48,347 bases of DNA from a virus: positions 1 to 48,347 of IMG/VR virus record IMGVR_UViG_3300025525_000047. The stretch is one strand, 5' to 3'. The notes under the pieces are model-generated. The model was given only the letters and a program-made list of their open reading frames with translations. It was not told where the DNA came from and searched no databases. This document shows positions 26,566 to 46,076 of the stretch, piece by piece. Made by a program: the position numbers and the translations under genes. Each line of letters starts with the position of its first letter. Position 1 is the stretch's first letter.

Positions 26566-28038
26566 TTAGAAAAAACCTAATGATTCTTTAGTTAAATCTT
26601 CCGGTATTGCTGCAATGCCATTCAAATGATAATCTACTGCATAGCAAAGCAGGTCAACATATTCATCGTGGGTCTTTAGTGGAAAGCCACAGACCTCATC
26701 AATAAAACTTTCGTTCCACTCCCCATCAACAAGATAAACCCGACCACATTCTATTGATGGAGATGCAGCATTGAGTCTGGTTTCCTTGCTTTCTGATGGA
26801 GAAGGTGTCTGTGTGACATTTATTTTCGTTTCCCTTTCGAGCTGTTGTATGACACTCTTGCCGTTTGCTTTTGGTTCAATCCGCAAGCTTCCGCGGTTGT
26901 CATAACCGTTGGCTTGTATGTAACCAGGGACAAACTTGATCAGGTCTGGGAATTGCTTGTATAGCTTTTTAGCATCAAAAATGAAAAGCGCATTATTGAC
27001 AAAAGTTGTGGCAATTATTCCTGAAGGGTCGTTGTCTGTCTTTTTCTTCTTTTCATCATATGCAGTGTCCATAAAGAAATGTACAGGTGCTTTCCCTCTA
27101 ATGGCCATAAACTGAGTCAAAGGAATTCTCCTAAACCATTCTTCTTTGATAATATTACCACCTTCCACTGTAGGCGACTGACCATACTGTCCGGAATATC
27201 CTTTACTTCCAAGATCAATCATAGCTTCATCCAGTACCTTTCTGGATAACCTGACGGGGTCAAGAAGTCCGTCAATATATTTTTCCTTCAATGCTGCTGG
27301 TTTCACATTATCTGATAGCTCTGCAGGTAAACAGACATGCTTAATATTTTCACCTTTGCGTTTCAGTAAGTATCCGGTAACATCTTCCTCATGAAGTCTT
27401 TGCATGATGGTCACGACTGGCGTATTTTCCTTGTTTACCTTACGCGAAGAAAGGGTCTTTGTATGTTCGTTAGCTTGTTCCCTTAGTGGACCGGAGCTGG
27501 CTTGTTTTGGATTCTGCGGGTCGTCATTGATGATTAAGTGTCCATGCTTTCCGGTAATGGTTCCACCTGTTGAAGTTGAATATCTGGCTCCTGTCTTTGT
27601 GTTTTCGTAAAATCCTTTTGCAGATTTATCAGGTCGAATCTTAACTTCTGGAAAATACGCCTGGTAGCGCTCACTGGTGATGATATCCTTGCTCTTTGAA
27701 GCATGATCAAGTGAAAGATCGCCTGAGTAGGAATTGGATATTACTCTTATTGTAGGGTCAACAGTCCACAGCCATGTTGGCCACATCACCGTCACAATTG
27801 TTGATTTTGTTGTGCCCGGTGGAATATTAATGAGAAGGTCATAAGGCTTTGGGTCACGTCGCACGATATGGACGGATAACTCCTGAAGCTCCTGGCACAG
27901 GAATGGAATATGCCAGTTGTATACCGGTTCTTCTTTGATTATCACGTCCCAGAATTCTTTAACGAAATAAAAGAAGTTGCGTTTGCACATCTCCCGGTTA
28001 TATGCAATTGTAATAGCTTCAACATTAGCCTTGCTCAT
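26566..28038 (-). CDS. terL: Terminase large subunit
   Basis: A 490-residue DNA-packaging motor. Walker A is PPGTTKST at 73-80 (with a C-terminal-lysine variant of the loop), Walker B is LIINDDP at 168-174, and a coupling-type S/T block lies at about 209-219 (TPVVTIMQRLHEEDVTG). The C-terminal RNase-H-like nuclease part begins near HFFMDTAYDE at about 316 and includes later acidic residues. It should cut concatemeric DNA and drive packaging through the portal. It overlaps the small subunit gene by 14 bases. Confidence 0.95.
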   Translation of the reverse strand: MSKANVEAITIAYNREMCKRNFFYFVKEFWDVIIKEEPVYNWHIPFLCQELQELSVHIVRRDPKPYDLLINIPPGTTKSTIVTVMWPTWLWTVDPTIRVISNSYSGDLSLDHASKSKDIITSERYQAYFPEVKIRPDKSAKGFYENTKTGARYSTSTGGTITGKHGHLIINDDPQNPKQASSGPLREQANEHTKTLSSRKVNKENTPVVTIMQRLHEEDVTGYLLKRKGENIKHVCLPAELSDNVKPAALKEKYIDGLLDPVRLSRKVLDEAMIDLGSKGYSGQYGQSPTVEGGNIIKEEWFRRIPLTQFMAIRGKAPVHFFMDTAYDEKKKKTDNDPSGIIATTFVNNALFIFDAKKLYKQFPDLIKFVPGYIQANGYDNRGSLRIEPKANGKSVIQQLERETKINVTQTPSPSESKETRLNAASPSIECGRVYLVDGEWNESFIDEVCGFPLKTHDEYVDLLCYAVDYHLNGIAAIPEDLTKESLGFF

Positions 28039-28458: not shown

Positions 28459-29529
28459 TTAATCCATGTTTTCATTAAAAATCTCTGAAGTAACAACACG
28501 TACGGTTCTGTTTTTCGGGTCTCCTGCCAGTAGAATCTGATAGATCTTCCTGCAAGTTTCAGATGAGTTTTTCGGGGTCACTTTTGCATAAAGTTTCTTT
28601 GCCTGCTTATAGCCTGGATAGAGTCCCGGATGCTGAGAGGCCTTCTTAAGTTCAAGCCTGAGAATTTCTTTATAATCTTTATCCTTGCCTGTTTCAAATC
28701 GCGAATCTTGTCTTGAACTCCTGAACATATCTGTTTCCCAATAAAGCATCACAAGATCTGCGTTGGGTTCTCTGCGGATAATTCTTTCATAAAGGTTTGG
28801 GTAGAATTCCAGAACCTTTGGAAGGGACTTTATGGTATCGACACTAAAGAACTGACTTATCCGGAGCTTGTTTATCGGAACCCCTGTCTTGTACAGATAA
28901 AGATATGTTTCAGGGAATGGTATGTTATTTAGCTTGAGGTAAAGCCATACATCATTATCTCTCCAGTCATAGATCGGATAAACAAATTGTGACTTAGACT
29001 TTTCGGCAATCGAATTCAGACGTTGCACTGATTCATATATTCTTAGCCCAACAAAAACAGGTAAGCCATCAAAAAGAACCTTTGAAAAGACTTGATATGT
29101 CATTCCCATGACAAACTTCTCATGATTGCGTATAGCGAACTTTGGCATAGGTTTAATCCAAATATCTTCTTTGCCCGGTTCCCAGCAGATAAAGCTTTCA
29201 TCATTCTCCAACCTGTTGCAGCAGTTGTAATGCTTTATAGGTAAACAGAACCAATAAAACTTTGCACCCAATGACAGGAACATGGAGCGCCATTCGAATA
29301 CTGTCCTTTCAAAGTCAGGATAAACGCCTTCCTCATCATAGAATGTAACGATTAGTCGGTTGAATGGAATGCTGTACTTGAGCATCGTTTTAATGATGAG
29401 GTCTCCCATAACGATTGAATCCTTTCCCCCGGAGAAGGAAAGGACTGTCATGTGATGCTTGTTGAAGGTTTCCAGAATCCTCCTTTCAGCAGCTGTCACA
29501 ACATCAATATTGTATGTTTTGGTTTTCAT
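28459..29529 (-). CDS. PP-loop ATPase, PAPS-reductase-like / IbrA (DUF3440) type
   Basis: A 356-residue protein. The PP-loop SGGKDS lies at 33-38. Downstream, FVYPIYDWRDNDVWLYLK and then GVPINKLRISQFF match the C-terminal pattern of the IbrA/DUF3440 group of PAPS-reductase-like proteins. Such enzymes activate a substrate as an adenylate; the E. coli IbrA/IbrB pair is known from prophages, but its chemistry is unknown. The start overlaps the ParB-like gene at 29526 by 4 bases, as for ibrB-ibrA. It sits between a second such pair and the terminase genes. Confidence 0.85.
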   Translation of the reverse strand: MKTKTYNIDVVTAAERRILETFNKHHMTVLSFSGGKDSIVMGDLIIKTMLKYSIPFNRLIVTFYDEEGVYPDFERTVFEWRSMFLSLGAKFYWFCLPIKHYNCCNRLENDESFICWEPGKEDIWIKPMPKFAIRNHEKFVMGMTYQVFSKVLFDGLPVFVGLRIYESVQRLNSIAEKSKSQFVYPIYDWRDNDVWLYLKLNNIPFPETYLYLYKTGVPINKLRISQFFSVDTIKSLPKVLEFYPNLYERIIRREPNADLVMLYWETDMFRSSRQDSRFETGKDKDYKEILRLELKKASQHPGLYPGYKQAKKLYAKVTPKNSSETCRKIYQILLAGDPKNRTVRVVTSEIFNENMD

Positions 29530-30047
29530 TTATATTTCCTCAATGACTCGGCATTATTGAAAGTCTGGCGTTTTATGATCGTATTAAGAAAAGTCTCACG
29601 ATCAATTTTTGAAAGTCTGAAAATCTCCTCTCTGCTCATGCCAATCTCTTTGGAAATTTCATCTACCGTTTTACCTTTATCCAAAAGTGATTTGACTATG
29701 TTTTCCATTGGTTCAAGAAGGTGTGTCCCTCTGGCACGATTGAATGTAACTGTACCGTACATGTTCTTACTTTCATCTTCATGCGTCACCACCACAACAG
29801 GAATCTTTCCACCCAACATTGATTTCAAAGGCTCTCTCCCGGAAACTAGCCATCTGTGAAAACCGTCTATGATGGTATAATCCGGCCTGATTACAATCGG
29901 GAAACAGAAACCATTTGTCAGTATGCTTTGCATGAGAAGTTTTAGGTTTTTCTCAAGTACTTTGTTGGGGTTATAATCATTTGGCCTGATTATTTCCCTG
30001 TCAACAAACTTCATTTCCTTAAGTGGCTTAAAGAGGTCTCTTTCCAT
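29526..30047 (-). CDS. ParB/Srx-fold protein, IbrB-like
   Basis: A 173-residue protein with the ParB N-terminal fold: IIRPNDYNPNKVLEKNL, FPIVIRPDYTIIDGFHRW (the GxHR-type nucleotide-binding motif as DGFHRW) and a C-terminal HTH (TVDEISKEIGMSREEIFRLS). This arrangement is as in IbrB. ParB-fold domains bind CTP or ATP. It pairs with the overlapping IbrA-like gene. Confidence 0.85.
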   Translation of the reverse strand: MERDLFKPLKEMKFVDREIIRPNDYNPNKVLEKNLKLLMQSILTNGFCFPIVIRPDYTIIDGFHRWLVSGREPLKSMLGGKIPVVVVTHEDESKNMYGTVTFNRARGTHLLEPMENIVKSLLDKGKTVDEISKEIGMSREEIFRLSKIDRETFLNTIIKRQTFNNAESLRKYK

Positions 30048-30049
30048 GA

Positions 30050-30628
30050 TCAGATCGTTATTTCACCTCCACAGTGGGGGCATTTCATTGTTCTTGCAGG
30101 TTGCATTCCTGCATCGATGTTTTCATACTGGGCATTTTGTTCTGCCTGAAGGTCATTGCTGAAATTGTCATTTCTTATACCAGGCTTTGTAAAGTCTACA
30201 CCCATGTTATCGAGACTAACTTCATTCAGGATTGTATCAAGGTACTCAGGAGAAAAGCCGATGATATCCATTTCCCCAATATCTTTGATCAAAGCCTCAA
30301 CCTGTGTAAAGTTTACATAACTCATGCTCTGAATCTTGTTATCCTCGAGCAATAGTTTCAGTTTCTGTTTTTCGTTCAGACCCTTTATAACTGTAACTTT
30401 TGCGGACTTTTCACCCATCTTTTCCAGAGCCATTTTCTTACCATGGCCACAGATAATCTGATTGTTTTCATCACAGATGATGCGATAATATTGGCCATAC
30501 CGATCCATGCTCTGTACGAGTGCATCTATCTGCGCGTGTGTATGGGTGTTGGGGTTGCCAGGGTGCTCTTTTAACTCTGACAGGTTAAGGACTTTATCCT
30601 CGTGAATGATTTTAGATTGTTTTGACAT
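30050..30628 (-). CDS. Second ParB-fold protein with C-terminal zinc ribbon
   Basis: I take the ATG at 30628 (SKQSKIIHEDKV); the longer open frame upstream only overlaps the neighbouring PP-loop gene. The 192-residue product has the ParB core: ELKEHPGNPNTHTHAQIDALV, RIICDENNQIICGHGKKMAL (GHGK as the nucleotide motif) and a following helical LLLEDNKIQ region. It ends with half of a zinc ribbon, MKCPHCGGEITI. Similar ParB modules are fused to or found next to phage DNA-modification enzymes. It overlaps the PP-loop gene upstream by 17 bases and lies 2 bases before the IbrB-like gene. Confidence 0.8.
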   Translation of the reverse strand: MSKQSKIIHEDKVLNLSELKEHPGNPNTHTHAQIDALVQSMDRYGQYYRIICDENNQIICGHGKKMALEKMGEKSAKVTVIKGLNEKQKLKLLLEDNKIQSMSYVNFTQVEALIKDIGEMDIIGFSPEYLDTILNEVSLDNMGVDFTKPGIRNDNFSNDLQAEQNAQYENIDAGMQPARTMKCPHCGGEITI

Positions 30629-31424
30629 GCTTTTTAAGTGTTTCAATTGCTTCAGGAAAATATTTTGCTGCTTTGTGTAATGTTTCTGGGCTAATCTGAT
30701 AAAGTAGCTCCCAGGAATGCTCCCTGCCAAAGGATGAGGTTTGCACGGGCCATACACCGGTACCACTAATCCAACCCTCAGGATCGTAATAGATTGGGGG
30801 GATATTTCTGTTCTTGAAATAGTGACAGGCTGCCAGCACATGTTCATGTTTCCAGTGTGCTATTGGAGACAACCTTGTTACTCCATTTTTATCTGTATAG
30901 AAATTCTTTCCCTTTTCACCGGTGTAGTTGCCATCTTGTGTTCTTCTCCCAAGAATGATAATATCAAGATTTGCGTTGTGAAAAAACTCTGCCTGTGCAC
31001 GATGCTGGATAAGTGCGTACCACTTGGACATCAATTCCGATCTGTCAGGAAATACCATGTGTGGATTTTTAACAAGCCATTCATATCCAATGTTGGCATC
31101 CCACGTTATGCAACCGGAAGGTCTGTTCATTTTTAGCCAGGCGAGATAATGTGGATATTCCAGCTCTCTGGATAGACCAATAACAGATTGATGGATTCCG
31201 GCTATCTCACATACTACCTGAAGGGCAATGCTGTCTTTTCCTCCAGACCATGCATATCCGGCATTCTTTTCTCCAACCCTGCACTTGATATCCATGGCAG
31301 CATCTGCAACAAGGCTTTCAATCTGGTCAGATGAAACAATCTTGTCTATATTGTCCCACAGCCTCACAAAAGCCTCGTTACTTGCATTCTGCTTTCTTCC
31401 CGGTGATTGAAAATCTACGATCAA
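30612..31424 (-). CDS. Second PP-loop ATPase, PAPS-reductase-like
   Basis: A 270-residue protein with the PP-loop WSGGKDS at 59-65 and a following LQVVCEIAG helix. The later region (IIILGRRTQDGN and SPIAHWKHEHVLAACHYF) holds the substrate-side motif of CysH-like proteins. It is different from the IbrA-like protein at 28459, so two separate PP-loop enzymes exist, each beside a ParB-fold gene. No C-terminal ECGLH-type catalytic cysteine motif of true PAPS reductases was seen, so sulfate reduction is unlikely. Confidence 0.8.
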   Translation of the reverse strand: MIVDFQSPGRKQNASNEAFVRLWDNIDKIVSSDQIESLVADAAMDIKCRVGEKNAGYAWSGGKDSIALQVVCEIAGIHQSVIGLSRELEYPHYLAWLKMNRPSGCITWDANIGYEWLVKNPHMVFPDRSELMSKWYALIQHRAQAEFFHNANLDIIILGRRTQDGNYTGEKGKNFYTDKNGVTRLSPIAHWKHEHVLAACHYFKNRNIPPIYYDPEGWISGTGVWPVQTSSFGREHSWELLYQISPETLHKAAKYFPEAIETLKKHVKTI

Positions 31425-32020
31425 AGGTGAATTGCTGTTGAAAGGGTGAATGAATCTATACCTGTGTCATACCTCAACTGAATCCATGAAAGGTTGGTTA
31501 GTTTTAGCCTTATGTTTGTAACAAAACCGGGCTGATCTCTGATTGAATAACCAGCATTAAAGATTACATGCTTCCATCCATATCCGGCAAGTATCTGAAG
31601 CCTGTCTTTCTGCAAGAACTTTTCCGCTCGATAGAAGTTATCCCAAGTGAAGTCAACCATATACTTATTGAGTTTGACTGTTCCTGAAATCGTTTCGCTG
31701 AAGGTCTCTGACTTGAGGTCATAAATTGACCTGAACAGCAGGTAGTATTTCTGTTGATAGTTTACATTGACCCAAAGTTGCGGTATGACTGCCTCCCTGG
31801 AGAAGTTATACTGTAACACCGGTGTAAGAGAAATCCAGTTGGCCGGTTGAACCTTGTAACCAACGAAAGGTGCAGCAGCAAGTTTTCCTGTACCATCTGT
31901 TGAGGTTGAAAATGGCATCCAGTATCTAAACTTTGTCGGTTGTGTGATACCGTCGTAGACTTGAGCTGAAGCTGTTGCTGCAAATGTCAGCATCAGCAGA
32001 ATTGCGATAATTCGTTTCAT
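31421..32020 (-). CDS. Exported protein, outer-membrane beta-barrel-like
   Basis: A 199-residue protein with a clear signal peptide (MKRIIAILLMLTFAATASA, cleavage likely before QVYDG). The remainder alternates polar and hydrophobic residues with many aromatic girdle residues (FVGYKVQPANWISLTPVLQYNF, WVNVNYQQKYYLLFRSIYDL, AGYGWKHVIFNAGYSI) and ends in FTLSTAIHL, consistent with a small outer-membrane barrel of about eight to ten strands. It lies between the PP-loop gene (4-base overlap) and the small genes below the symporter. Phage genes for outer-membrane proteins can block superinfection; transport is an alternative. Confidence 0.65.
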   Translation of the reverse strand: MKRIIAILLMLTFAATASAQVYDGITQPTKFRYWMPFSTSTDGTGKLAAAPFVGYKVQPANWISLTPVLQYNFSREAVIPQLWVNVNYQQKYYLLFRSIYDLKSETFSETISGTVKLNKYMVDFTWDNFYRAEKFLQKDRLQILAGYGWKHVIFNAGYSIRDQPGFVTNIRLKLTNLSWIQLRYDTGIDSFTLSTAIHL

Positions 32021-32328
32021 GAAGTTTGATTTTGAGTTTTAATGAATGATTTGAGAATTTTCTTGAGTGCATTTTTTGCGTTCAGTGCAGGCATAAATAT
32101 TGTATCCGGCTCCTGAAAAACTTTTGACCTTGTAATTACATTTCCGTTAATATCTAGGATTGCTTCCTTCTTGAGGTCTACTTTCCTAAGATGGACCTTT
32201 GTCATGTTGAAAGCAAAGAGGGAATGCCCACGCTTAATTTTTATACTTCCAAGCCTTTTATACTCTTTCTGAGCCTCTGCGACCAAATGAGTATCTGGCT
32301 TTAATTGGATTGGGTTAAATTCGTTCAT
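32017..32328 (-). CDS. Small conserved phage protein, unknown function
   Basis: I place the start at the ATG at 32328 (NEFNPIQLKPDTH), one base after the upstream stop; the earlier in-frame codons lie inside the neighbouring gene. About 103 residues, basic, with YKRLGSIKIKRGHSLFAFN and a C-terminal helix ALKKILKSFIK. It has no membrane segment or signal. It overlaps the exported-protein gene by 4 bases. Its role is unknown. Confidence 0.65.
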   Translation of the reverse strand: MNEFNPIQLKPDTHLVAEAQKEYKRLGSIKIKRGHSLFAFNMTKVHLRKVDLKKEAILDINGNVITRSKVFQEPDTIFMPALNAKNALKKILKSFIKTQNQTS

Positions 32329-32329
32329 C

Positions 32330-32599
32330 TTAGTTTGGATTGATTGGAAAATCAGGTTTCTCAAAAAAGACTGTTTCTTCAGCTGACATCCATACCGGAG
32401 GTTGGGTGTGTCCGGAAAGAACAGATAGCCATATCCGGCCGGTACGGTTAACCTTTGCTAGTTCTTCCGGAGTCAATTCCCAGCAGGAAATACATTGCTT
32501 TCCATCGGTGAACACTGGTAGAGGAGAGCATTCCTCCTCTGATATTCCTTTGGGTGGTCCAAGCTGTTGATTCTGCTCTTTAAACTTTACTGGTTTCAT
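32330..32599 (-). CDS. Small conserved Bacteroidota phage protein
   Basis: An 89-residue protein with KPVKFKEQNQQLGPPKG at the start and CISCWELTPEELAKVNRTGRIWLSVLSG followed by QPPVWMSAEETVF. The pattern of ISCWxLTxxE..K...TGxxWLSVL...QPPVxxS is one I recognise from small proteins in Bacteroidota phages and conjugative elements, function unknown. It overlaps the symporter gene by 20 bases and lies directly upstream of the next gene. Confidence 0.75.
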   Translation of the reverse strand: MKPVKFKEQNQQLGPPKGISEEECSPLPVFTDGKQCISCWELTPEELAKVNRTGRIWLSVLSGHTQPPVWMSAEETVFFEKPDFPINPN

Positions 32600-33986
32600 C
32601 TTTCAATGTGATTGATATGAGACCTGAAGCAAGGATGGTAAAGAGTGATCCTGTAACAATCAATAGCGTATTGCCAGAGAAGTTTCCAATTGCGAAAATT
32701 GGAAGACCTATTGTGATACTGGTCAGAAGTCCATAGAACAATCCTTTTTCGCTCATCTTTATGCCTTTGATTGCAAAGGCTGTTGGAAGCATGACTGAAG
32801 CTCTAAGGGTGCCATAGATCAGGAACAGGTGTAAGATCTTCAGTCCAGGGATGTTGGATATTGTGATTGCTAAAAAGGTTACAACAATCATTGAAAACTT
32901 TGCAACCTGAACAGGAGACCATCTTCTGAATCCTTCAAATCGTTTCACCAGATCATGGCCCGAAACAGAAGAAACAGCGCATATGATACTGTCAACAGTG
33001 GAAATCAGGCCGGAAAGAATCATGACCATGAAAACATACAAGAACCATTTAGGTGCAAAAGCCATCACAGCCCCTACATTGACAAGTTGTGGGTCTGTAA
33101 TATCTAAACCTTTTCCTGCAACAAAAAAGCCGAAAATCGCAAGAGAAAGCGGTACAACTCCAAAGATTGCTGCTGCCCAAAGCATTGATTTCTTTACCTG
33201 ACCTTCTTTGATGGACCATATTCTTTGCCAGAACATCTGATCTCCAAATGTCCCGGATAGAAGTCCTATCGTTGTAGGAATTCCGAATGCAAGTGTTACA
33301 GCTAATCCTTTACCGCTAAACATCCCATGTATGTCGCCAGCTTTTCCGGAAAGCCCCTGCAAGAGTGTTTCTGTTCCTCCACCATTGATGAACATAAACG
33401 GCAATCCAATAAGTAGTACTATCACTATCCAGAGCATCTGCCAGTAATCAGTCAGGATGCTGGCTTTAATGCCCTTTGTGTAAGTGTATGCAAGTGGAAT
33501 AACAGCAAGCAGAACTGTTGTAAGTGTGAATGGTAGACCTGTAATTTTCCACATGATTGTTGCTCCGGCAAGGAGCTGCACTGCAAAGCTGAGTATCTGC
33601 AGACCGAAACTTTCAACTAGGTAGAGATTGTGTGTCCTGTTACTAAACTTTGTCCTGATGAAATCAGAGAATGTCCAGCCATGAGGATGCATTTCTCTCA
33701 TCCAGGATGCGAAGTATGCAAAGATTACAAGTGTTAAAACGTTTGGTGTAATAAACCAGAAAACACCAACCCAACCAGCAGTATAGGCTTTCTCTGAAGC
33801 AATAAACATTGCCGGTGCCCATACCCATGTTGCAGCCAGTGAGAATGCTGCCATCCACCAGGGGATGCTGCGGTTGGCAACAAGATAGTTCAGTTTGGAC
33901 GTGTTTCCTTTTCGGATAAATTTTGTGATAAGGGATACTGCGATGAAGTAAAACAGCAGTAATAATGCTCCATGTGTCTGTGTCAT
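32580..33986 (-). CDS. Sodium:solute symporter (SSS family)
   Basis: A 468-residue membrane transporter with about 13 hydrophobic helices. It has the SSS start pattern (NYLVANRSIPWWMAAFSLAAT), a helix-3 region GWTFSDFIRTKFSNR, and the family's STVDS-like sodium-site motif in SGLISTVDSIICAVSSV at about 330-346. It is the first gene of late operon A, directly below the late promoter, and its start is at the ATG at 33986. The substrate cannot be told; urea, sugars, nucleosides and organic acids are all known for the family. An inner-membrane transporter in a late phage operon is unusual. Confidence 0.9.
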   Translation of the reverse strand: MTQTHGALLLLFYFIAVSLITKFIRKGNTSKLNYLVANRSIPWWMAAFSLAATWVWAPAMFIASEKAYTAGWVGVFWFITPNVLTLVIFAYFASWMREMHPHGWTFSDFIRTKFSNRTHNLYLVESFGLQILSFAVQLLAGATIMWKITGLPFTLTTVLLAVIPLAYTYTKGIKASILTDYWQMLWIVIVLLIGLPFMFINGGGTETLLQGLSGKAGDIHGMFSGKGLAVTLAFGIPTTIGLLSGTFGDQMFWQRIWSIKEGQVKKSMLWAAAIFGVVPLSLAIFGFFVAGKGLDITDPQLVNVGAVMAFAPKWFLYVFMVMILSGLISTVDSIICAVSSVSGHDLVKRFEGFRRWSPVQVAKFSMIVVTFLAITISNIPGLKILHLFLIYGTLRASVMLPTAFAIKGIKMSEKGLFYGLLTSITIGLPIFAIGNFSGNTLLIVTGSLFTILASGLISITLKDETSKV

Positions 33987-37002: not shown

Positions 37003-37788
37003 CTATTGATTTACAACTTCAACTTTCTTAAATCCTTTTTCCATTACCCAATTGATAAAAGCTCTGCCTTTCTCCGTCCAATAGGTTGTGACTGCTGTTT
37101 TCAAGTTACCCTGTTGGTCAGTATAGGTATGAGTTTTGGTTTTGGTATAGTCTCTGTTCTGGTACCTGTGATAAAGCACCCAGGTACTACCGGACTTGTA
37201 AATGATCTGCTTTTGATGTAAAAGCCGGTTCAGAGAAACTGCACTCATCCCTAAATCTTTTGCAATTACATTTGTTGAAATCAGACTTTCACTTTGAAGA
37301 ACGTTATTGAAGTAGTTGACCTTTGGTGCTGATTCCTTCAGTTGTTTTTCCTGCAGCAAGGCTGTTTCTGCAATACGTTCTTTTTCCCGTCTTTCCCTTT
37401 TTAGCTCCGTAGCAAGGTTAATAATAAAGTCAGGATTGAGAAGATCCTCCGGCTCCATTGCCGTTGCACCATGCTTGAGCAGTTCTTTTATCCGGTCATT
37501 GCACCAGATTGCAAAAGATGGCGAAAGCCATCTGGCAAATTCCAGCGCTACATCTTCATGTAACCATGTGCCAACTCCATTGACAGTGTGAATCAAATCT
37601 GACCTATCCGATTTTCGGATAGCTTCCAATTCCAGCAGATAGCTTTCTGTAGATGGTAGTTCTAACCATTTCCCAGGCCTTTTTTTGAAGGCAGAAGCCA
37701 TTTGCGTTGCGTCAACCATCACTTCACCTTTTTTGCTCTGAAAAGTGATTGTATGACCTTCATAGTTGAAAATATTCATTTTATCCAT
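37003..37788 (-). CDS. KilA-N antirepressor-like protein
   Basis: A 261-residue protein with an N-terminal KilA-N domain: VMVDATQMASAFKKRPGKWLEL at about 23-44, GVGTWLHEDVALEFARWLSPSFA at about 71-93. A helical linker (EREKERIAETALLQ) leads to a C-terminal ANT/KilAC-like domain (SESLISTNVIAKDLGMSAVSLNRLLHQKQ, then TEKGRAFINWVM). Such proteins oppose phage repressors or regulate early genes. No repressor is in the window. Confidence 0.9.
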   Translation of the reverse strand: MDKMNIFNYEGHTITFQSKKGEVMVDATQMASAFKKRPGKWLELPSTESYLLELEAIRKSDRSDLIHTVNGVGTWLHEDVALEFARWLSPSFAIWCNDRIKELLKHGATAMEPEDLLNPDFIINLATELKRERREKERIAETALLQEKQLKESAPKVNYFNNVLQSESLISTNVIAKDLGMSAVSLNRLLHQKQIIYKSGSTWVLYHRYQNRDYTKTKTHTYTDQQGNLKTAVTTYWTEKGRAFINWVMEKGFKKVEVVNQ

Positions 37789-43763: not shown

Positions 43764-44385
43764 AATCTTTAATGGTTTTTTTGAGTTTATTTAATGCGAT
43801 AATTGCTTCTTTTAAATCTTTGGGATAATTGTGAATGTTGTTCCGGAGCACATTCTCTTGCCGCGTAATAAGTTCAAGGTTATCAATCCGAATATCTGAT
43901 TGGTCACCATTTTTGAATGCAACAATTAACCCTTCAGGGATAGGCCCGTTATGTTGCATCCAGAGTTGACGGTGCAGAAGCTCAAATTTTCCGTTTACTC
44001 TTATGTGAGCATAATATCTTCCGCCAGAATCTTTCCTTACTGAAATGTAACCGTCATACTTTGTGTTTGGTGGTACCTGTCCGGGCTTAAAGAAAGTCTT
44101 ACTACACTTTTGCTTTACTTCCGGAGACATCTTTTTACCTTTATTAGCCGGCACATTGCCTTTCTTAAACCGGTATGGTTTACCAAGATTTGCAAGGTTC
44201 TTTTTAAACCTGGTAGATGCCTCACTTTGATGAAATTCAGCTGACTTCTTTAATCCAAGAATAAATGCCTGATTATAAACTGCATTGACCGACACATCCA
44301 GAAACATCGCAATAACAGCTGCGCTTACATGAGGATACCTTGATTCCAGATATCTTAATTCCGAACCTGTCCACTTGTGTCTCAT
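43750..44385 (-). CDS. HNH-type protein with N-terminal helix-turn-helix
   Basis: A 211-residue protein. Residues 1-45 look like a Myb/SANT-type DNA-binding helix set (HKWTGSELRYLESRYPHVSAAVIAMFLDVSVNAVYNQA). The later part holds the HNH_3-like core: LLHRQLWMQHNGPIPEGLIVAFKNGDQSDIRIDNLELI at about 143-180. It resembles phage HNH proteins, many of which are free-standing homing or packaging-linked nucleases. Overlaps the ParB gene by 4 bases. Confidence 0.85.
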   Translation of the reverse strand: MRHKWTGSELRYLESRYPHVSAAVIAMFLDVSVNAVYNQAFILGLKKSAEFHQSEASTRFKKNLANLGKPYRFKKGNVPANKGKKMSPEVKQKCSKTFFKPGQVPPNTKYDGYISVRKDSGGRYYAHIRVNGKFELLHRQLWMQHNGPIPEGLIVAFKNGDQSDIRIDNLELITRQENVLRNNIHNYPKDLKEAIIALNKLKKTIKDYGKE

Positions 44386-46076
44386 TTCTGAAGCTCTTCA
44401 ATCTTTGAATTAATCTTTTCCTTGCGATTGAGATAAACTCCCTGGTGCTTCAGCTCTATCTCCTTTACCTCATCCGGATAGTATTCTGCCGCAATCTGAA
44501 TGAGGGAATTGGCCTCGCTAATCTGGTAGTTTGGAGTTGAAGTGTTAAGATTTTTCTGAAGAAAAGCCCGGAAGAGTCGATTGATCTGATTGATATCGAG
44601 TTTTGACACAATCTCAGCCTTTCTTTTACTTGCGATGAAACCGTTAGTATTTGGGTTTAACTCTTCCCTAAGTGGAACAAAGCCGATACTATCCAGCAGA
44701 ACAATGTATACTGCTCTCCATTCAATGGGAGTTAATTCTCTTTCAATATTTGAATATACATTGTTTGAAAGGAGCTCTTTGACTTCCAAATAAGTCTTTT
44801 CAAAAGCAAGTTCAGCATTACGGTTGTCTTTTGCTTGCAGTTCAATTATTTGTTTCTGTTTACCTACTTCGCCATCTTCTGCTTTATTACTTTTACCAGT
44901 TCCAGTAATTTCATACTCAAGAATTTTACCTTTATCTGTGCCAGCAGTCATGAAGACTTTTCTCAGATTTCCTTTAGAGACCTTTTTGTTGTAATCTTCA
45001 AGGTTTTCGTTATACTCTTCAAGCTCAGATTCATAATCATAAAGTGCGTCATTAAATTCCTCTACACTGTCAAAATCTTCCCTTTTTGGTTGTTCAGGAG
45101 GTTCTGGTGCAAACACTTTCTGAAAACCATTAGACCAGCTCATTTCAACAACAGGCACGCCGCGATTTTTCAAAGATTCTACCTGTTTTTCCTCTTCATT
45201 ATAAATATATGATGGGATTCCAAGAATTATTTCAGGCTGTTCCTCTTGAATTCTGTTCATTTCACGCTCAAAATGAATATCACTCTTCTTTTTGAAACAA
45301 TCTCGATCTAAGCAAAGTCCAGATTCCGGAGCATCAGGAAAAAGCAATAGATTTGATGAAGTGTTTTTCGGGCAAATAGTGCATGAGCCTGCTTTACTAT
45401 TCAGAGAAAGATCTTCAAGATTGAATTGAGCTTCACTTAGTTTAAGGGTGAATCTCTTCTCTATCATTTGCTTGAGATTTTTGACAGTCGGGCAGCTCCA
45501 GTATTGTTTTCGATCTTCAAAATCAGTATTGAAAATTTCCATCTGGTAAACAGATTCTAATTTAGAAATCTCAAAAGCGTGTGATACAGTGATGATATCC
45601 TGTTGAAGGAGTTGTCCGAAATTATAGATCAGATCGTTTAGCTTTACCCTTTGTCGGATATAAGTCACACTCTTGCCAAATCGGTCGCTGAGTGAATTGT
45701 AGTCATATTTCCCTTTGTTGATCAGGCTCTGGAAGGCTAAAGCCTCTTCCAAAGGGCTCACGTCTTTTCTCTGAAGGTTTTCTGTGATCATCAAATCGAA
45801 GGCTTCTTCATCTGAAAGGTCTCTTACAATTACCGGGACTTCTTTCAAATCAGCAATTACTGCTGCAGATAGTCTTCGTGAACCACAGATTACTTCAAAG
45901 GTTGGAATGTCATACTTTTGAACTGAAGTGTTGAGCCTGGCAATGATGGGTTGAAGTATTCCAACCTGTTTAATGCTTTCGGCAAGTTCTTCAATCCCTT
46001 CCATATCAAACTCCTTACGAGGGTTCATTGAGCTCTCTTGGAGTTGATTTGTTTCGATGTACTGAATTTGTTGCAT
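44382..46076 (-). CDS. ParB/Spo0J-like protein with zinc-finger-like insert
   Basis: A 564-residue protein. The ParB N-terminal domain is at 1-110: SMNPRKEFDMEGIEELAESIKQVGILQPIIAR, CGSRRLSAAVIADLKEVPVIV, NLQRKDVSPLEEALAF. A central HTH region follows (YNSLSDRFGKSVTYIRQRV). At about 222-260 four cysteines (CTIC.., CLDRDC) suggest a zinc-finger module. The remainder is a charged, helical region and a C-terminal domain. It is probably a phage DNA-binding or segregation and regulation protein; a partitioning partner (ParA) is not seen. Confidence 0.9.
   Translation of the reverse strand: MQQIQYIETNQLQESSMNPRKEFDMEGIEELAESIKQVGILQPIIARLNTSVQKYDIPTFEVICGSRRLSAAVIADLKEVPVIVRDLSDEEAFDLMITENLQRKDVSPLEEALAFQSLINKGKYDYNSLSDRFGKSVTYIRQRVKLNDLIYNFGQLLQQDIITVSHAFEISKLESVYQMEIFNTDFEDRKQYWSCPTVKNLKQMIEKRFTLKLSEAQFNLEDLSLNSKAGSCTICPKNTSSNLLLFPDAPESGLCLDRDCFKKKSDIHFEREMNRIQEEQPEIILGIPSYIYNEEEKQVESLKNRGVPVVEMSWSNGFQKVFAPEPPEQPKREDFDSVEEFNDALYDYESELEEYNENLEDYNKKVSKGNLRKVFMTAGTDKGKILEYEITGTGKSNKAEDGEVGKQKQIIELQAKDNRNAELAFEKTYLEVKELLSNNVYSNIERELTPIEWRAVYIVLLDSIGFVPLREELNPNTNGFIASKRKAEIVSKLDINQINRLFRAFLQKNLNTSTPNYQISEANSLIQIAAEYYPDEVKEIELKHQGVYLNRKEKINSKIEELQK

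Follow-up and report, generated by a model that had tools for sequence, protein, structure and literature searches.

The window analysed here is a stretch of 48,347 nucleotides, positions 1 to 48,347 of the IMG/VR virus record IMGVR_UViG_3300025525_000047, and coordinates refer to this window unless a locus is named. Its minus strand carries, from 33986 down to 26566, a sodium:solute symporter (SSF) gene, two small open reading frames (ORFs), a predicted outer-membrane beta-barrel, four genes termed P4, P3, P2, and P1, and the genes for the small and large terminase subunits (Table 1). P4 and P1 are PP-loop ATP-pyrophosphatases, and P3 and P2 are ParB-like proteins. All junctions in this run overlap or leave a gap of at most 2 bases. 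The first-pass annotation had described the quartet as a PP-loop, ParB, ParB, PP-loop series next to the terminase. An ORF check confirmed all four frames on the minus strand in that order, with overlaps of 17 bases (P4/P3) and 4 bases (P2/P1), a gap of 2 bases between P3 and P2, and another of 2 bases between P1 and the small terminase gene. However, the unit does not end at 31424. It extends through the barrel and the two small ORFs to the symporter at 33986, so that the quartet sits in the centre of a longer, operon-like gene series. After deduplication, the same cassette was found in approximately 200 loci of viruses and prophages from Bacteroidota, Bacillota, and other groups, and this recurrence is more than chance.

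The compared loci were collected from viral contigs, bacterial genomes, and phage records (334 loci, 248 after duplicate removal). They were chosen by similarity, and the percentages describe these gene families rather than all phages; the taxonomy of the viral contigs was taken from related genome loci. The transporter was first spotted as the gene filling the P4 slot in loci without P4. It was translationally coupled in 192 of the 208 informative loci containing P3 or P4, compared to none of the 6 loci with only the IbrA/IbrB pair (P1 and P2), a small comparison group (Fisher p = 6e-7). In most cassette loci, the gene immediately preceding P4/P3 is a member of the full SSF family. In the reverse direction, at least one cassette gene was located within 6 kb in 76/76 full-symporter and 76/76 short-symporter viral loci; these 152 loci were the top matches of the respective scans, and a phage may be counted in both sets. 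The one clear exception, in phage record MT835995.1, was a symporter-like match of 23% identity. No description of a transporter-linked cassette was found in the open-licence literature.

Three transporter types fill this one slot. The first is the SSF symporter, which in the window scored 82.8 bits against PF00474 (gathering cut-off 22.8), matched phrog_20720 (1.7e-113) and TIGR00813 (1.2e-34), and has DUR3 and a choline transporter as its nearest solved relatives. The second is a shortened relative with 7–8 helices, related to SSF by hhalign (probability 98, E 3e-14) and without any family above the Pfam cut-off; examples occur at L289:7006-7998, L025:4302-5303, and their relatives. The third is an ATP-binding cassette (ABC) permease with an SsuA-like (sulfonate-type) binding protein, and no ABC ATPase signature motif was found beside these SsuA-like loci. 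The median stop/start spacing was -4 from SSF to P4 (n = 102), -4 from the short symporter to P4 or P3, -1 from the barrel to P4, and 0 from the binding protein to P3. As a rule, the transporter stop codon thus overlaps the P4 or P3 start by 4 bases. Three transporter types in one slot, among them an unrelated ABC permease with its SsuA-like protein, are what the import of a single solute predicts.

The barrel is restricted to Bacteroidota-type loci. Its AlphaFold2 model (predicted local distance difference test, pLDDT, 84.3) contains approximately 12 strands, and Foldseek matched it to KdgM, NanC, OMPLA, and a designed 12-strand barrel. The N-terminus is signal-peptide-like with a conserved AQVYDGITQPT start, and the protein is thus predicted to be a closed 12-strand outer-membrane barrel with a signal peptide. 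The barrel was present in 8/8 Bacteroidota genome loci with the full symporter, compared to 0/63 other genome loci with a transporter. The only other Bacteroidota genome locus with a transporter, L333 from a metagenome-assembled genome (MAG), has a short symporter and no barrel. Among deduplicated transporter loci, it was present in 21/21 of the Bacteroidota type (P2-P1 order) and in 0/163 with the P1-P2 order, and it never occurred in Gram-positive loci. Restriction of the pore to hosts with an outer membrane is the pattern that a role in solute uptake predicts. In loci L117 (2319-4631), L268 (5666-7978), and L378 (5983-8295), which include a Prevotella-type phage, a single open frame of 771 residues encodes both the symporter and the barrel, separated by a linker of approximately 85 residues, with an internal signal-peptide-like stretch. 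The two may be truly fused, or signal peptidase may cleave a polyprotein into its parts, and the joining in one frame links the functions of the two proteins.

Table 1. Genes of the minus-strand run in the window, listed in the direction of transcription.
Feature	Length (amino acids)	Position	Strand	Matches and remarks
Sodium:solute symporter (SSF), putative cassette importer	468	32580..33986	-	PF00474, phrog_20720, TIGR00813
Small ORF, overlaps symporter and next ORF	89	32330..32599	-	phrog_11885 1e-8; homologues in 18 fetched loci, restricted to close relatives
Small ORF	115	32017..32364	-	Homologues in 22 fetched loci, restricted to close relatives
Predicted outer-membrane beta-barrel	199	31421..32020	-	AlphaFold2, Foldseek; 4-base overlap with P4 start
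P4, PP-loop ATP-pyrophosphatase, PAPS-reductase/CysD fold	270	30612..31424	-	phrog_424 1e-11; TTG start; SGGKDS
P3, ParB-like domain, acidic linker, C-terminal CPxCG knuckle	192	30050..30628	-	phrog_620 1.5e-37
P2, ParB N-terminal domain, IbrB-like	173	29526..30047	-	PF02195 2.3e-7, phrog_2159 2e-60
P1, PP-loop ATP-pyrophosphatase, IbrA-like	356	28459..29529	-	PF01507 1.4e-10, phrog_2302 5.9e-71; SGGKDS and GxRxxESxQR
Terminase small subunit, 2 bases downstream of P1		28025..28456	-	phrog_309 5.3e-12
Terminase large subunit, closes the tight run		26566..28038	-	phrog_38 8.2e-90, PF17289

Profile searches gave two main gene orders, P4-P3-P1-P2 (mostly Bacillota) and P4-P3-P2-P1 (Bacteroidota). 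Further loci lacked P4 or contained P1-P2 alone, and a third order, P3-symporter-P1-P2, was observed in at least 14 viral contigs (L360, L363, L364, L366, L367, and others). P4 was present in 120/137 symporter loci, 29/48 short-symporter loci, and 2/7 ABC loci, and P3 occurred without P4 in 58 loci. P4 therefore appears to be an optional member, and the core would be the transporter, P3, P1, and P2. The quartet had been described as two complete pairs, and this description does not hold, since P1-P2 also occurs alone and P3 without P4. The next large downstream gene is usually the terminase large subunit. These terminases belong to many PHROG families (phrog_675, 2, 15, 38, 9, 3717, and others), and thus the cassette is kept at a terminase-side position across unrelated phages. 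Relatives also show block deletions, mostly in-frame, which join the barrel to the P1 C-terminus, P2 to P1, or P4 to P2 (L341-L344, L348 (L343:7308-7964), L349, L358:1553-2635, L033/L259, and L461); terminase genes still follow in the barrel cases. These block losses suggest that the cassette is accessory, and metagenome assembly error is possible in individual cases.

The P1 residues of SGGKDS (with K36 in the PP-loop) and GxRxxESxQR are approximately 100% kept in 235 homologues. In P4, G62, K63, and S65 are invariant in 66 homologues and D64 is kept in 65. The SGGxDS motif in both homologue sets, together with the fold of P4, places the two proteins in the PP-loop ATP-pyrophosphatase superfamily. 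The predicted P4 structure (pLDDT 96.2) matched CysH best among PDB entries (Z 15.0, root-mean-square deviation 3.0 over 181 residues), and CysD (Z 14.0), GMP synthetase, FAD synthase, LarE, TtuA, and TilS were also matched. Because TtuA, LarE, TilS, and GMP synthetase match at similar Z, the fold alone does not select a chemistry. The hallmark of CysH, a phosphoadenosine phosphosulfate (PAPS) reductase, is a C-terminal catalytic cysteine in ECGLH, and true PAPS reductases lack an intact ATP-hydrolysing SGGKDS loop. No conserved C-terminal cysteine was found in P1 or P4, and P1 scored 20.3 bits for CysH (cut-off 165) and 41.5 bits for the ATP sulfurylase CysD (NCBIfam cut-off 195). The intact loop and the absent CysH tail argue for P4 as an ATP-pyrophosphatase that would adenylate a substrate rather than a PAPS reductase. 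P1 has one near-invariant cysteine, C95 (97%). C72 of P4 seemed invariant in 10 sequences, but it is cysteine in 59/66 homologues and was rejected as an invariant catalytic residue; P4 has no near-invariant cysteine.

P1 and P2, as adjacent genes overlapping by 4 bases with strong matches to phrog_2302 and phrog_2159, correspond to IbrA/IbrB. The first-pass PP-loop and ParB identities were likewise supported, by PF01507, PF02195, phrog_620, and phrog_424. P2 carries a DGFHRW pocket and an NRARG motif, and D61, G62, H64, R65, and N103-R104-A105-R106-G107 are 100% invariant in 240 homologues. Its solved matches are Spo0J/ParB, and those nearest to P3 are Noc/ParB. Compared at the sequence level with the GxxR-type CTPase pocket of ParB, P2 has the DGFHR variant, and in P3 the usual arginine is replaced (GHGKK or GNGL). 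The P3 frame is open to an earlier ATG, yet homologues begin at 30628. A variable linker separates the P3 ParB-like domain from the CPxCG knuckle, whose C, P, and C are 96–100% conserved (Cys pair 99–100%) in 209 homologues. The predicted zinc ribbon of P3 is thus reduced to one knuckle at the extreme C-terminus, half a ribbon only. P3 also matched phrog_498, a DNA methyltransferase family (6.7e-26). In phage DNA methyltransferases, the P3 domain forms the N-terminal part, and it was located within proteins annotated as DNA methylases in Gordonia and Streptococcus phages.

Around the run, two intrinsic-terminator-like hairpins lie upstream of the symporter, at 34315-34295 and 34045-34029 (-). 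The second stands approximately 40 bases ahead of the symporter start, an arrangement that would suit entry into the run by read-through or antitermination; terminator-like sites in this region were about as numerous as expected by chance. A Bacteroidetes-type promoter pattern was found at no more than chance level. Rfam and tRNA searches of the window gave no matches, and the phage has no tRNA genes. An anti-repressor Ant homologue is encoded at 37003-37788 (-), so the phage is probably temperate. In the early region, a further ParB-like protein of 564 amino acids (44382-46076, -; phrog_4715 and phrog_18726) adjoins an HNH endonuclease gene. The window P4 is 100% identical to a sequence in L255 (JAGXRB010000099.1), a contig of a Bacteroidetes MAG (isolate CROMO_A_64), and the window therefore probably comes from a Bacteroidota phage or prophage.

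With middling confidence, we propose that the cassette is an import-coupled nucleic-acid modification system, most likely for DNA hypermodification. The quartet would be its enzymatic half, with phage DNA just ahead of packaging as the most likely target. The symporter, or the ABC system in its place, would take up a small solute during late expression, in Gram-negative hosts by way of the pore. P1, aided by P4 where present, would then use ATP to adenylate a base carbonyl or carboxyl group, or the solute, and the partner would attack the adenylated group in the manner of TilS, GMP synthetase, or CmoY, a phage ligase. P2, with its intact DGxHR pocket, and P3, with its DNA-methyltransferase-type ParB domain and CPxCG tail, would engage DNA and couple the use of nucleoside triphosphates to it. 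The resulting hypermodified base would protect the phage DNA, and phages with only IbrA/IbrB may use a simpler form with an intracellular substrate. A bolder claim, which we hold only tentatively, is that this is a new class of nucleic-acid modification, in which a phage-borne uptake route (inner-membrane symporter, plus outer-membrane porin in Gram-negative hosts) supplies an environmental molecule to be attached to phage DNA by two PP-loop ligases and two ParB-type subunits.

Two analogies bear on this proposal. CmoY, a phage ATP-dependent amide ligase of the asparagine-synthetase-like type, joins glycine to 5-carboxymethylcytosine in DNA, and ParBc-domain proteins occur in many CmoY-type neighbourhoods (PMC12783734). 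A different modification of DNA bases is served by the ParB-like ATPase DpdB (PMC12839542). The modification role suggested by the first-pass annotation is plausible because the P3 domain is fused to phage DNA methyltransferases and because of the CmoY/ParBc precedent. Its sulfur-transfer chemistry became less likely, since the coupled transporter and porin shift the expectation towards joining an imported small molecule.

Several observations weigh against our proposal. The remaining 16 of the 208 informative P3/P4 loci are without a transporter, and the group they are compared with is small. The leading guess for the solute, based on the SsuA-like binding protein that accompanies the ABC permease, is a sulfonate- or amine-like compound, but this match scored 114.7 bits, under the family cut-off of 163.5, which leaves the solute class weakly assigned. 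The window gave no match for an enzyme able to introduce a chemical handle (DNA methyltransferase, thymidylate synthase, or CmoA), so a PP-loop enzyme would need either an unmodified base or the solute itself as its substrate. DNA as the probable target is suggested by domain sharing and gene position, and ParB folds also have partition, serine kinase, and regulatory roles. Furthermore, a single role has been reported for IbrA/IbrB, the activation of other genes (named so in PMC5874904; discussed in PMC4541368).

The same import and chemistry could instead serve host tRNA or another RNA, as for TilS, TtcA, and TtuA, and adjust translation during infection. Many PP-loop enzymes modify tRNA, and P4 and P1 share the fold of TilS, TtuA, and NcsA. 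We regard this as unlikely, as the phage has no tRNA genes, the P3 domain is otherwise fused to DNA methyltransferases, family profile scans gave no RNA-binding domain match in P1 or P4, and a packaging operon is late for an effect on translation.

More doubtful is an auxiliary metabolic role, in which a sulfonate or other sulfur source is imported and activated sulfate is reduced by PAPS-reductase-like enzymes to boost sulfur assimilation. The PAPS-reductase family name of PF01507, CysH as the closest fold of P4, and the SsuA-like binding protein agree with it, and phage PAPS reductases have been read as sulfur genes (PMC7785012, PMC10434257). This reading was weakened by the intact ATP-hydrolysing SGGKDS of both P1 and P4, the missing catalytic ECGLH cysteine, and the scores of P1 far under the CysD and CysH cut-offs; it also leaves the two ParB proteins and the terminase linkage unexplained.

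Equally improbable is a thiolation of DNA, either of the phosphorothioate type or on a base, in which a host cysteine desulfurase would supply the sulfur and the P3 CPxCG tail or the conserved P1 cysteine would be the relay. The cysteines at P1 C95 and P4 C72, the invariant P3 tail, and the weak similarity of P1 to DndC and BrxP are consistent with it. However, P1 reached 19 bits against the DndC cut-off of 290.4, P4 had no NCBIfam DndC match, and no DndD or desulfurase match was found in the window; the kinship with DndC suggested by the first-pass annotation was not borne out. Moreover, sulfur derived from cysteine needs no importer. The least likely explanation is lysogenic conversion, in which IbrA/IbrB activate genes while importer and porin feed the lysogen, without nucleic-acid modification: these proteins carry the annotation "co-activators of prophage gene expression" and have been connected with the E. 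coli IbrAB complex (PMC5874904, PMC4541368), and the phage encodes the anti-repressor of a probable temperate phage, but the PP-loop catalytic motifs are invariant and the cassette runs in the same direction as the terminase genes, without a break in the window and close to them elsewhere, which implies late lytic expression.

Genes for IbrA/IbrB and "PAPS reductase" abound in phages, where they are usually taken for co-activators of prophages or for part of sulfur metabolism. Their constant association with a transporter, and with a porin only in hosts with an outer membrane, provides a functional handle: something would be taken up and put to use. Should the product be a modified base, viral DNA modification would be tied to a nutrient from outside the cell, and a long-annotated, unexplained gene pair would be testable in the cultured Faecalibacterium phage Taranis, whose cassette consists of transporter-P3-P1-P2.

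Among known systems, DndABCDE/Ssp also combines a PP-loop enzyme with a ParB-like partner (DndC, DndB). The cassette differs in its importer, in the DndC score, and in the missing partners DndD and cysteine desulfurase, and the Dnd reading was rejected on the score and the partners. For DndD, TIGR03185 had no match in the window, gave only sub-cut-off matches in controls, and the record may be a fragment; the DndE profile had no match in the window and none in control genomes either. P1 matched the PADLOC model of BrxP from Type 4 BREX (2.8e-10). BrxP is longer, fused, and Cys-rich, with 779 model positions (PMC12839542), and this similarity of P1 was the only BREX feature seen, other BREX genes not having been searched for. 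The DpdA/DpdB system for 7-deazaguanine insertion likewise uses a ParB-like ATPase in DNA base modification (PMC12839542); its base-exchange enzyme DpdA was not seen among the genes scanned, with no search aimed at it. Sulfate assimilation by CysH/CysD shares the P4 fold and the PF01507 match of P1, whereas the cassette enzymes have an intact, ATP-hydrolysing PP-loop, no CysH catalytic tail, and scores far under the family cut-offs.

Asparagine-synthetase-type ligases belong to the PP-loop ligase superfamily. The CmoA-CmoX-CmoY system resembles the cassette in having such an ATP-dependent, AMP-forming ligase together with ParBc proteins in phages (PMC12783734). In contrast, the cassette ligases are PAPS-reductase/CysD-like and their substrate would be imported by the phage transporter; neither CmoA (TIGR00740) nor a DNA C5-methyltransferase (PF00145) was matched in the window, and the controls were matched. 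Finally, the IbrA/IbrB pair, known as "co-activators of prophage gene expression", includes P1 and P2 as members by sequence and occurs as an adjacent pair in many phages. Compared to this pair, the extended cassette adds P3, an optional P4, a transporter, and, in Bacteroidota, a porin.

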